Shown here in pieces: positions 2,446 to 25,926 of a DNA stretch of 35,823 bases. Where the stretch lies: positions 1 through 35,823 of the forward strand of contig JAUHYN010000003.1 of assembly GCA_030426505.1 (NCBI GenBank). The letters run 5' to 3'. Numbering within the stretch: position 1 is the first letter of the stretch; each line of letters opens with the position of its first letter. This DNA is from a bacterium (GTDB lineage: Bacteria; Myxococcota; Kuafuiibacteriia; Kuafuiibacteriales; Kuafuiibacteriaceae). A program made the position numbers and the translations under genes. The notes beneath the pieces were generated by a model that was given only the letters and a program-made list of their open reading frames with translations, was not told the origin of the DNA and did not search any database.

Positions 2446-3924
2446 ATGCGGATCCCTGTCGCGCCGTCGCTGCTCTTCGCACTCCTCGTCGCTTGTTCCG
2501 GCGGCACGGAGGCCCCCAACCCGCCGCGTGACGGCGGCGCGTCGATCCAGGACGGGGGCGAAGCGCCGCGCGACGGCGGTGAAGCGCCGCGCGACGGCGG
2601 CGTCGATGTCGACGCCGGCTTCGAGCCGACCGCGCACGCGATCGTCGATATCGCGCAGCCGATGATCGACGAGGGCTGGTACCCGAGCCTGTCGGTCGCG
2701 TGGCTCGACGACGGCGAGGTCCACCACCTGGGCCTCGGCACCGTGGGCGCGGGCGGCCCGACGCCGGACGCCGACACACTCTACGAGATCGGATCGATCA
2801 CGAAGACGTTCACCGGGACGCTGCTCGGCGACATGGCGTCACGCGGCGAGGTCATGATCACGGACACCGCGCAGAGCGCCGCGTGGCCGTCGCTCACGCT
2901 CCCGGTCTTCGACACGACCGAGATCCGCCTCGTGGATCTCGCCACGCACTTCTCGGCGCTCCCGCGCCTGCCCGACAACTTCGCGCCGGCGGATCCCGCG
3001 AACCCCTACGTGGATTACACGCGCGACGACCTCGACGCGTTCTTCGCCAACCACACCCTCGCGCGTCGGCCCGGGCAGACGTTCGACTACAGCAACCTCG
3101 GCGTCGCCCTGCTCGGCCAGCTCCTCGCGAACACCGCGTCGACCGCGTACGACCAGCTCCTCGCCGAGCGCGTGTTGGATCCGCTCGGCATGATGGACAC
3201 GACCTTCGACCTCGACGCCGAACAGCAGACCCGGCTCGCGCCCGGATACGACTACAACGGCGAGCCCACGTCGAACTGGGACCTCGGGATCTTCGACCCG
3301 GCCGGCGGCCTCGAGAGCTCCGCGAGCGACATGATGCTCTACGCGCGCGCCTACCTCGACCGGACCACGCTCGGCGACGCGATGAACCTCGCGACCACCG
3401 CGCAGGCCAACATCGACGCCCAGACCTCGGTCGGCCTCAACTGGATCCTGGCCAACGGCGGCGAGCTCGTCCTCCACGACGGCGCGACCGGCGGGTACAA
3501 CGCGTTGCTCGTCCTCGTGCCCAGCGAAGATCGCGCCGTCCTCGTGCTCGCCAATGGGGCGAGCTACCGCACCAACGAGTTGGGCTTCGCGATCGTCCAG
3601 GCCGTGCGCGGCCAGGCGTACGTCCGACCGGACCCGATGCCGACGGTCGACGTCTCCGACGAGGCGTTGGATCGGAACGTCGGCGTCTACGCGCTGCAGG
3701 GGAACGCGGCGCTCCAGGCGACCGTCACCCGAGTCGGCGACGCGCTCTGGGTACAGCTCACCGACCAGCCGAACTTGAAGCTGTTCGCGACCTCCGACCG
3801 CGACTTCTACATCCGGGCGGTCGAGGCCGCGCTGACGTTCGACGCACCGGACGGAGCGGGCGAGGTCGCGGGCTTCACCCTCCGCCAGGGCGGCGGGACG
3901 CCGCGGTTCGATCGCATCCCCTGA
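2446..3924 (+). CDS. Serine hydrolase lipoprotein, class C beta-lactamase fold
   Basis: A 492-residue exported protein of the Beta-lactamase (PF00144) family, which covers esterases, D-aminopeptidases and penicillin-binding-like hydrolases. The signal peptide ends in a lipobox with Cys17 (LLVAC). Residues 18-60 are a disordered Asp-Gly-Gly linker with a tandem DGGEAPR repeat (21-bp DNA repeat, 2560-2601). The catalytic motifs are complete: S117-I-T-K120, Y215-S-N217 and H344-D-G346 followed by ATGG. A C-terminal beta-rich domain of about 110 residues follows, as in many family members. The substrate is unknown; antibiotic hydrolysis should not be assumed. It is divergent from the ABC1-kinase/TetR operon, so shared control is possible. 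Confidence 0.9.
   Translation: MRIPVAPSLLFALLVACSGGTEAPNPPRDGGASIQDGGEAPRDGGEAPRDGGVDVDAGFEPTAHAIVDIAQPMIDEGWYPSLSVAWLDDGEVHHLGLGTVGAGGPTPDADTLYEIGSITKTFTGTLLGDMASRGEVMITDTAQSAAWPSLTLPVFDTTEIRLVDLATHFSALPRLPDNFAPADPANPYVDYTRDDLDAFFANHTLARRPGQTFDYSNLGVALLGQLLANTASTAYDQLLAERVLDPLGMMDTTFDLDAEQQTRLAPGYDYNGEPTSNWDLGIFDPAGGLESSASDMMLYARAYLDRTTLGDAMNLATTAQANIDAQTSVGLNWILANGGELVLHDGATGGYNALLVLVPSEDRAVLVLANGASYRTNELGFAIVQAVRGQAYVRPDPMPTVDVSDEALDRNVGVYALQGNAALQATVTRVGDALWVQLTDQPNLKLFATSDRDFYIRAVEAALTFDAPDGAGEVAGFTLRQGGGTPRFDRIP
2560..2601 (+). repeat. 21-bp tandem repeat in lipoprotein linker
   Basis: Two adjacent 21-bp units differing at one base encode EAPRDGG twice in the disordered linker of the serine hydrolase lipoprotein. 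Linkers of this kind keep lipid anchors away from the catalytic domain and vary in length by slippage. Confidence 0.8.
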
Positions 3925-4034
3925 TCCCTCGGGTCACCCGACCACCGGTCGACCCGTCGAATGTCGCATAGTGGAGACTTTTGCGCACCTTTGAAGCGTT
4001 CTGACCGAAAACGATCGGCAAGGAAGGGAACCCC

Positions 4035-19864: not shown

Positions 19865-23467
<3,603 letters not shown>

Positions 23468-23543: not shown

Positions 23544-24314
23544 CTACGCGGCCTTCGAAGGAGCGGCTTCGTCCCAGGTGAGGCGGCCGACTTCGAGGGC
23601 GTCGAGCCAGTCCAGGAAGCGCGTCACGTCCTCTCCGCGGAAGATCGCGCCGTGCTGCGGGCAGATCATGCTGCAGTTCAGCGCGCGGACGCGCTTCGAC
23701 CACGAGCGCAGCGCGGCCGTGCTCGGCATCCAGCGCTGATGGAACCCGCGCATGTAGCGGACGTGTTTGTCGAAGTCCTCGACGAACAGCGAGGTCTCGC
23801 TGTTGGGGAGGAGCGCCGCGCCGACGTCGCCCGAGAAGAGGATCCTCGAGGCCGGATCGAACAGCGAGAAGTTCCCGGACGCGTGGCAGTAGTGCGCGGG
23901 CACGGCGTTGAGCCGGACACGCGAGCCGATGTTGATCGGCATGCCCTCGTCGGGGATCTCGATGATGCTCGCGGCGCGGCCCATCGCGAAGTGGGCGATG
24001 AAGCCGGTCCACATCCACGAGACGTACGTCTTCACGTTGGGACAGAGGTCGAGCCACATCGGGAGCGAGGACACGATGTCCGGATCCTGGTGGCTCGCGA
24101 ACAGCGCGACGACGTCTTCCGGCGAACAGTAGCGCGTGAGCTCCGACAGCACGCGCGGGAAGATCTCGATCCCGCCCGGGTCGGGGAGCAGCGTCCCCTC
24201 CGGCGTGACGATCGCGAACTCATTCGTGTCGATGACCTCGTCGCGCTTGTCCGGATCGCGACCCATCACGATCCAGCTGTGGGTGGGGCTCTCGTAGAGC
24301 ACTTCGCTTCTCAT
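23544..24314 (-). CDS. ODP-type diiron metallo-beta-lactamase-fold protein
   Basis: A 256-residue protein with the metallo-beta-lactamase fold of flavodiiron proteins but no flavodoxin domain. Ligand motifs are H75-Q-D77-P-D79, H144 (HYCHASGNF), D163 (LFSGDVG) and H221 (PQHGAIF). This resembles the oxygen-binding diiron protein (ODP) family, members of which sense oxygen or iron for chemotaxis in Treponema, rather than hydrolytic lactamases. The ATG at 24314 overlaps the stop of the MCP-like gene by four bases, so both are made together. That context favours a sensory role over oxygen reduction. Confidence 0.82.
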   Translation of the reverse strand: MRSEVLYESPTHSWIVMGRDPDKRDEVIDTNEFAIVTPEGTLLPDPGGIEIFPRVLSELTRYCSPEDVVALFASHQDPDIVSSLPMWLDLCPNVKTYVSWMWTGFIAHFAMGRAASIIEIPDEGMPINIGSRVRLNAVPAHYCHASGNFSLFDPASRILFSGDVGAALLPNSETSLFVEDFDKHVRYMRGFHQRWMPSTAALRSWSKRVRALNCSMICPQHGAIFRGEDVTRFLDWLDALEVGRLTWDEAAPSKAA

Positions 24315-25075
24315 CGTTCTTCGACTCCTCGTTCCAGTGCGGACAAGAGGCGTTGGCCGTCCGCGGCGATGCGACCCAGTGCGGTCAGGCGCTCCTCGAG
24401 CACGTCGACCGTCGCGGCGACGCGATCGCCGAAGCTCACGAAGCGCTCCGCGTCGCCCTGGATGCGCGCGACCTCGATGCGTACGCACTGGGAGATGTAG
24501 CGGGCGGTCCGCGTCGTCGCGTGCAGGTCGTCGAGCAACAAGCGCACCTCTTGGATGCTGCCGTGCGCTTCGTGCGTCAGGCGCTGCACCTCTTGGACGT
24601 GCGGCTCCACGCGGGCGGCGATCGCCGAGACGCTGCGCCGCTCCGTGACCGTGAGCGGGGCGCGCGAGAGCGCGCGCGTCAGGCGCGACAGGTCACGCCC
24701 GCTCCGGAACGCGACGTCGTCTCCGGAGAGCCCGTGGCGGCGCGCGATGTCGAGGAGCGCCTGGACCTCGAGCCCGTAGACGCGGATGACGTGCGTGCAG
24801 TGCGAGATCGCGCCGGCGACTTTGCGGCAGCGGTGGTCGATGTCCGCGACGAGCGGTTCGATCGCGGACGGGAGCTCCGACAGGAACTGCGTGAGCACGC
24901 CGAGCGAGCCACCTTGGTCGCGGCCGAGCTTCGCGGCGTGGACCACGCCGTTCCGAGCGAGGAGCTCCATCTGAAAGGCCAACTCCTTGAGCGGGCGCGC
25001 GCTGTTCTGGACTTCGACGCAGACCCCGAAGACCTGGTTCACGCGTTGGTTGAGTTCGAGCAGGGAAGACGTCAC
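24311..25075 (-). CDS. MCP-like soluble coiled-coil signalling protein
   Basis: A 254-residue all-helical protein with no membrane segment. Residues 42-64 (NGVVHAAKLGRDQGGSLGVL and following) resemble the hairpin tip of methyl-accepting chemotaxis proteins (NxxIEAARAGExGxGFxVVA), shifted toward a diverged form; LSELPSAIEP follows where MCPs have VRxLA. The rest is heptad-like helix. This suggests a cytoplasmic receptor-like protein that may contact CheW/CheA. I chose the GTG at 25075; the GTG at 25159 would add a Ser/Arg/Gly-rich stretch without family similarity. It is coupled to the ODP gene. The match is by eye and needs a profile search. Confidence 0.6.
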   Translation of the reverse strand: MTSSLLELNQRVNQVFGVCVEVQNSARPLKELAFQMELLARNGVVHAAKLGRDQGGSLGVLTQFLSELPSAIEPLVADIDHRCRKVAGAISHCTHVIRVYGLEVQALLDIARRHGLSGDDVAFRSGRDLSRLTRALSRAPLTVTERRSVSAIAARVEPHVQEVQRLTHEAHGSIQEVRLLLDDLHATTRTARYISQCVRIEVARIQGDAERFVSFGDRVAATVDVLEERLTALGRIAADGQRLLSALERGVEER

Positions 25076-25227: not shown

Positions 25228-25926
25228 ATGGCCGCGACCGTCCTTAGCACACGCCTCCCGGAGTCCTCCGTCGATGTCGACGCCCGCACCCTCGCGCCCG
25301 ACCTCGGCGCGCAGCTGATGTTCTTCGCGCGGCAGCCCACGCCTCGGCTGTTGCTCGCCCTGTTCACGTGCGCGGCGGTGACGCGGATCCTCTACGCGAC
25401 CTGGCGCCCGGCCGACGCCTACATCGTGCTCGCGATCGCGGTGTACTGGCCACTGCAGGAGTGGTTCCTCCACCGATTCCTGCTCCACCTGAAGCCGCGC
25501 ACGATCCTCGGCCACCGCTTCGATCCGCTCTTCGCGCAGGCCCACCGCGCGCACCACCGCCGTCCGTGGGTCGTCGAGACCACGTTCCTCCCCACGCGCG
25601 TCCTGCTGGGCCTGATCCCCGTCACGATCGTCGGCTGGGCCCTCGCCACGCCGGACATCGGCCTCGCGGCCACGGGCGTCGCCGCGTCCGCGTTCGCCGC
25701 GACCCTCTACGAGTGGACGCACTACCTCACCCACTCCGCGTACGTCCCGAAGTCGGCCTACGTGAAGCGCATCTTCCGCAACCACCGGCTGCACCACTTC
25801 AAGAACGAGCACCACTGGTTCGCATTCACGGTGCCGATGATCGATCGCATCCTTCGCACGGATCCGGATCCGAGCGAGGTCGACCGCTCCGAGACCGTGC
25901 GAACGCTCGGCGTCGACGACGCGTGA
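25228..25926 (+). CDS. Fatty acid hydroxylase/sterol desaturase family membrane protein
   Basis: A 232-residue integral membrane diiron enzyme. The His clusters that bind the two irons are present: H82-x4-H87, H106-x2-HH (109-110), H165-x3-H169, H186-x2-HH (189-190) and HH at 195-196. Hydrophobic segments at about 40-57, 63-77, 123-141 and 145-162 anchor it. The superfamily covers sterol C4 and C5 oxidases, fatty acid and carotenoid hydroxylases and alkylglycerol monooxygenase; substrate is uncertain, and steroid-like or lipid substrates are plausible in myxobacteria. I chose the ATG at 25228 over the GTG at 25210. A small membrane protein follows 7 bp later, probably in one operon. Confidence 0.88.
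   Translation: MAATVLSTRLPESSVDVDARTLAPDLGAQLMFFARQPTPRLLLALFTCAAVTRILYATWRPADAYIVLAIAVYWPLQEWFLHRFLLHLKPRTILGHRFDPLFAQAHRAHHRRPWVVETTFLPTRVLLGLIPVTIVGWALATPDIGLAATGVAASAFAATLYEWTHYLTHSAYVPKSAYVKRIFRNHRLHHFKNEHHWFAFTVPMIDRILRTDPDPSEVDRSETVRTLGVDDA

Follow-up and report, generated by a model that had tools for sequence, protein, structure and literature searches.

Two overlapping genes in a genome of the Myxococcota raise the question of whether a diiron protein of the ODP type is coupled to a dedicated MCP-like receptor and, if so, what such a receptor acts on. The pair lies in the window, the whole stretch of 35,823 nucleotides that was analyzed, for which a sequence-only reading had proposed an ODP overlapping a soluble helical protein with an MCP hairpin-like segment, possibly as a stand-alone receptor. 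Both open reading frames were found at the positions given there, on the minus strand, and they overlap:

23544..24314, minus strand: ODP gene, the downstream gene of the pair (ATG start, 256 amino acids; identified by PF19583 and the solved ODPs 6qrq and 6qnm)
24311..25075, minus strand: gene of the predicted single-chain MCP-like partner, the upstream gene (GTG start, 254 amino acids; identified by the family profile)

The partner stop and the ODP start share 4 nt (ATGA). A plausible ribosome-binding sequence precedes each start, that of the partner being GAGG, 8 nt 5' of the GTG. The arrangement of the pair is operon-like; promoter and terminator scans of the pair gave nothing useful. The gene for the transcription-repair coupling factor, mfd (19868-23467, minus strand), starts 76 nt downstream of the ODP gene on the same strand and is probably unrelated.

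Identity of the downstream gene product

The downstream gene product matched the Pfam profile PF19583 from end to end (positions 1 to 194 of 194) with an E value of 4.8e-71 and 239 bits, the curated cut-off being 27.2. The PDB entries 6qrq and 6qnm, both named "oxygen-binding diiron protein," were matched with E values near 1e-64 (5.7e-65 and 6.3e-64, respectively). With 256 amino acids and matches to ODP and Lactamase_B only, the protein lacks a flavodoxin domain, as had been claimed. The previously assigned ligand series H-x-D-x-D, H, D, H is complete:

24078..24092, minus strand: diiron ligand motif H75-Q-D77-P-D79, invariant in all aligned ODPs and matching H-x-E-x-D of 1E5D
23883..23885, minus strand: ligand H144, from the ODP alignment
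23826..23828, minus strand: ligand D163 (bridging Asp position), from the ODP alignment
23652..23654, minus strand: ligand H221, from the ODP alignment

Every ODP compared, the solved ones included, has the residues H75, D77, D79, H144, D163, and H221, which align with the H-x-E-x-D, H, D, H ligands of the rubredoxin:oxygen oxidoreductase 1E5D. The second ligand position carries Asp instead of the flavodiiron Glu, likewise in the solved ODPs. At the sequence level, the ligands are thus consistent with a diiron site. By homology, the product is a true ODP and probably an iron/oxygen sensor.

Distribution of the gene pair

We searched for the ODP in 195 Myxococcota genomes and then read the best loci. 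In seven of them, including the window, a partner gene is located directly upstream of the ODP gene on the same strand, so that the gene neighborhood, the conservation of which had been named as a check, recurs; partner and ODP genes overlap by 4 or 11 nt or are separated by a 9-nt gap. The ODPs of the seven pairs are 50 to 71% identical, and the window partner shares 51% identity with the partner in genome G002 and 16 to 20% with the other Myxococcota members. Protein searches in a plasmid collection retrieved two further pairs with the partner directly upstream of the ODP, the first in Shewanella aestuarii and the second in Pseudoalteromonas xiamenensis; one of these two gammaproteobacterial partners is annotated as "chemotaxis protein." No such partner was present beside the ODPs of Acinetobacter, Eleftheria, and Mitsuaria in that collection. 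The seven Myxococcota partners are all-helical proteins of 189 to 256 amino acids.

A profile built from the seven Myxococcota partners retrieved, over the 195 genomes, the same seven sequences with at least 177 bits, followed by a drop to 49 bits and less, and no family member away from an ODP. A direct search with the window partner returned a single locus in the species-level genome collection, again that of G002, and none in viral contigs or plasmids; the relatives of this partner were reached only via ODP neighborhoods. A 713-residue frame in genome G001 scored no better than E 3e-4 over residues 19 to 103. In a tree of 25 ODPs, the nine partner-linked ODPs formed one clade (99/97), which falls in the part of the tree that contains the solved ODPs; the remaining Myxococcota ODPs are separate from it. 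Four genomes (G000, G002, G083, and G177) contain one ODP of each kind, i.e., one partner-linked and one of the other clade. The strict pairing supports the proposed coupling of the two genes.

Relationship of the partner to MCPs

The partner is a soluble, all-helical protein with neither a sensor domain nor a membrane span. In a single-sequence search, residues 20 to 68 matched MCPsignal (PF00015) with an E value of 0.0047 (about 0.005), and its 17.2 bits are below the curated cut-off of 34.6 bits; other members scored between 0 and 20 bits. Since this match is weak and is the only family match of the partner, it amounts by itself to a hint. The evidence from the family is as follows. (i) MCPsignal matched at the same place in four of the seven Myxococcota members, as the best match in three and as the second in one. 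(ii) The seven-member profile matched genuine MCPs with E values of 1e-12 to 1e-9 per genome, and several of its next matches after the partners (49 bits and less) coincide with MCPsignal matches in the same genomes. (iii) In the PDB, the nine best matches of this profile were all MCPs, headed by Tsr (1QU7, E 5.9e-7). (iv) Alignment with local MCPs by hhalign gave 98% and a P value of 8.6e-14 for the first half of the protein (hairpin 1 below). Since the next-best matches of the family profile, in the genomes and in the PDB, are genuine MCPs, the partner family is, as judged by profile comparison, MCP-derived. Profile comparisons thus bear out both family assignments, that of the ODP and that of the partner. 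The proposed hairpin-like segment needs revision: the similarity to MCPs is real, but instead of one segment it concerns two hairpins, which together take up most of the protein; the second is far more weakly supported.

Two predicted hairpins and a possibly divided tip

AlphaFold2 models were obtained for the window partner (pLDDT 86.4, pTM 0.77) and for the partner in G177 (pLDDT 88). Although these members are only about 15% identical, both models consist of four long helices forming two hairpins, and the features of the window partner are

24737..25072, minus strand: predicted hairpin 1, residues 2-113 (helices 2-50 and 52-113); AlphaFold2 model and hhalign to MCPs
24320..24649, minus strand: predicted hairpin 2, residues 143-252 (helices 143-204 and 209-252); AlphaFold2 model
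24884..24979, minus strand: hairpin 1 tip, residues 33-64, AFQMELLARNGVVHAAKLGRDQGGSLGVLTQF; aligned with Tsr tip 372-403, with His46 at the Glu385 position
24431..24499, minus strand: hairpin 2 tip, residues 193-215, YISQCVRIEVARIQGDAERFVSF; from the alignment, in register with hairpin 1 by hhalign

The topology of the models is consistent with a single-chain counterpart of the MCP dimer. For both models, the top Foldseek matches were not MCPs but for the most part designed single-chain four-helix bundles, along with other helical proteins; this is to be expected because the natural counterpart of the bundle spans two chains, and it provides no confirmation either.

The tips of the two hairpins have diverged in different ways. 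In Tsr numbering, hairpin 1 has Asn or Asp at position 381 and Lys or Arg at position 388 in all nine members, and Glu at position 385 in none. At position 385 of hairpin 2, all nine have Glu, and residues of the 381 and 388 types are mostly absent there. An intact tip, with equivalents of Asn381, Glu385, and Arg388, is thus found in neither hairpin. For comparison, 27 MCPs were taken from these Myxococcota genomes by a motif favoring Asn381 that did not demand Glu385 in every case, and 26 of them have Glu385. The sole residue invariant across the nine members is E201 in the hairpin 2 tip. Among members less than 40% identical, conservation peaks at residues 33 to 48 and 57 to 64, around tip 1, and at residues 193 to 208, in tip 2; higher averages at residues 1 to 8 and 177 to 184 are based on one and four columns, respectively. 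The alignment suggests that the tip may still be in use, with its functions divided between the two hairpins.

That hairpin 1 alone is MCP-derived, the partner being an ordinary short MCP with an appended, unrelated helical pair, would account for the low similarity of hairpin 2 alone to MCPs (P 0.0017), a score reached by 2 of 100 heptad-block shuffles. We consider this unlikely. Hairpin 2 matched hairpin 1 in register (hhalign 70%, P 3.9e-5), at a score that none of 100 heptad-block shuffles equaled, and the reversed sequence gave 0.19; these controls were used instead of column shuffling, which is too lenient a null for coiled coils. In addition, the hairpin 2 tip of the Shewanella member, VIAVNARIEAGS, corresponds to the MCP tip pattern LLALNAAIEAARAG, and a loop is seen at the predicted tip in both models.

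Possible output of the pair

The statement that no cheA or cheW is nearby holds for the contig of the window, on which neither was found, but not for the genome, which encodes CheA (contig C380), CheW domains (C380 and C1250), and three MCP matches, all on contigs other than that of the window. None of the pairs has a che gene close by, and in the other Myxococcota hosts the CheW matches are not near the pair. CheA and CheW are encoded in all seven Myxococcota genomes carrying the pair; however, since 167 of the 195 Myxococcota genomes contain CheA, its presence in the hosts is uninformative on a coupling to Che proteins. The idea of a stand-alone receptor is therefore retained in part: no che cluster adjoins the pair in any locus read, but the receptor is probably not Che independent, as the MCP tip is its best-conserved part and, as weak evidence, all seven hosts encode CheA and CheW.

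In Treponema denticola, an ODP (TDE2498) is coupled to the MCP homologue TDE2496. This homologue modulates CheA and is devoid of transmembrane and sensing modules (PMC7666581). By analogy, we propose that the pair serves as an auxiliary oxygen/iron receptor in the cytoplasm, with CheA/CheW encoded elsewhere as its target, a reading to which we assign a probability of roughly 45%. The ODP would bind two irons and, by homology with the characterized T. denticola protein, O2, and its state would be relayed to the partner by protein contact, as the strict gene coupling and co-inheritance suggest. The partner, according to its sequence and the models, would be a single-chain four-helix bundle in which two tandem MCP hairpins replace the MCP dimer. 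The arms of the modeled hairpin 1, of about 49 and 62 residues, leave little room for methylation sites. Since the partner lacks sensor and membrane parts and is probably too short to include the usual methylation region, the ODP is its only evident input. In the least certain step, the conserved tip may act on the CheA/CheW of a chemosensory system encoded elsewhere, the partner possibly being a minority member or perturber of the array, as reported for TDE2496. The tip sequences themselves count against such an action, since Glu385 is missing from hairpin 1 and most other tip residues are missing from hairpin 2, as does the lack of linked che genes.

The same loss of Glu385 in nine of nine members, together with the unlinked che genes, would be expected if the ODP-driven sensor were genuine and its receptor a stub outside the Che pathway, the bundle signaling to some other target, for example a histidine kinase or response regulator, or else a further coiled-coil protein. 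In G002, a HAMP hybrid histidine kinase gene is indeed found 81 nt downstream of the pair, and in G083 a lone receiver domain gene follows at 205 nt. Such linkage is limited to two of the nine loci, and conservation resides in the MCP tip and not in the rest of the bundle; because of this and of the analogy with TDE2496, action on unlinked CheA/CheW is favored, and an output outside the Che pathway appears somewhat unlikely. Strict pairing would be equally expected of an accessory subunit, so that the partner might instead stabilize, scaffold, or inhibit an ODP that is an oxygen- or NO-handling enzyme, in keeping with the relationship of ODPs to flavodiiron reductases (the 1E5D match). However, the ODP has no flavodoxin domain, there is no adjoining electron-donor gene, the characterized ODP is a sensor (PMC7666581, PMC6978683), and a mere stabilizer would have no need of an MCP tip pattern, all of which make an accessory role improbable.

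Returning to the receptor reading, a broader version of it may be put forward tentatively: the partners may be a so far unrecognized, ODP-dedicated receptor family in which the MCP dimer has become a single, obligately asymmetric chain with a divided tip (hairpin 1 having the Asn381/Arg388 side and hairpin 2 having Glu385), linking a metal/oxygen sensor to arrays or to a new output.

Comparison with known systems

ODP sensing, ODP-MCP operons, ODP fusions (PMC7319448), and soluble single-chain MCPs (PMC4692393) have already been published. Like TDE2498/TDE2496, the pair couples an ODP gene to a cytoplasmic MCP homologue without transmembrane or sensing modules, and in the tree the two solved ODPs share a side with the paired ODPs. 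Possibly unlike TDE2496, the partner is a predicted tandem-hairpin single chain of 189 to 256 amino acids with a degenerate, divided tip. According to the summary in PMC7319448 of the work of Muok et al. (2019), ODP-MCP operons occur in two gene orders, and ODPs are also found with other signaling genes or fused to signaling domains; an MCP-type gene and an ODP gene in one operon are common to those operons and ours, and that summary mentions neither single-chain nor degenerate receptors.

Natural soluble single-chain MCPs have two signaling hairpins per chain, and their function is stated as unknown (PMC4692393). The partner may likewise have two MCP hairpins in one soluble chain; the repeat described above speaks for this, and the weak similarity of its second hairpin to MCPs speaks against it. 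Whereas those proteins are described as versions of MCP signaling domains, the ODP partners are much shorter, tip degenerate, and, in the data searched, always paired with an ODP. An engineered single-chain Tsr controls CheA (PMC4692393), which shows that arrays can form and CheA can be controlled when both subunits of an MCP dimer are joined; unlike the partner, it is engineered, full length, and membrane bound, with both tips intact. We found no description of the combination of an ODP with a single-chain MCP, or of a divided tip, in the literature searched, which did not extend to the original ODP paper.

The two subunits of a dimer are placed differently in the MCP trimer of dimers, one toward the trimer axis and one toward the outside (PMC4692393); the role of each cannot be seen with ordinary MCP homodimers. 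If our reading is correct, nature would have supplied a tool for this question in the form of a single-chain receptor with oppositely diverged tips, and ODP sensing through dedicated soluble receptors, here of a new build, would extend to Myxococcota and marine Gammaproteobacteria.

Other ODP contexts

The host genome has another ODP locus (L009, contig C1356), in which a Hemerythrin-like domain is fused to the ODP (2480-3928; Hemerythrin E 7.8e-13). A second such fusion was found in the same family (L052, 2430-3851; Hemerythrin E 6.4e-16), in a genome (G003, 97% complete) with no CheA match; two different diiron domains are thus combined in one protein. Next to each of the two ODP loci of the host genome is a fatty acid hydroxylase-type gene, a class of oxygen-using enzymes, namely, at 25237-25923 on the plus strand of the window (Pfam E 5.3e-14) and at 3949-4719 of L009 (assigned by eye), which may be coincidence.

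In five loci with Myxococcota ODPs of the second clade (L050, L051, L054, L056, and L060), a Roadblock/LC7-type protein is directly adjoining, as checked with Pfam in L051, L054, and L060. The clusters L054 and L060 read sensor kinase, Roadblock, ODP, response regulator, and ParA-type ATPase, and this context could be a different oxygen signaling module. In L056 (5165-8314) and L057 (8695-11850), the ODP is followed by a large protein in which HD-GYP-, PAS-, and histidine-kinase-like regions were recognized by eye.
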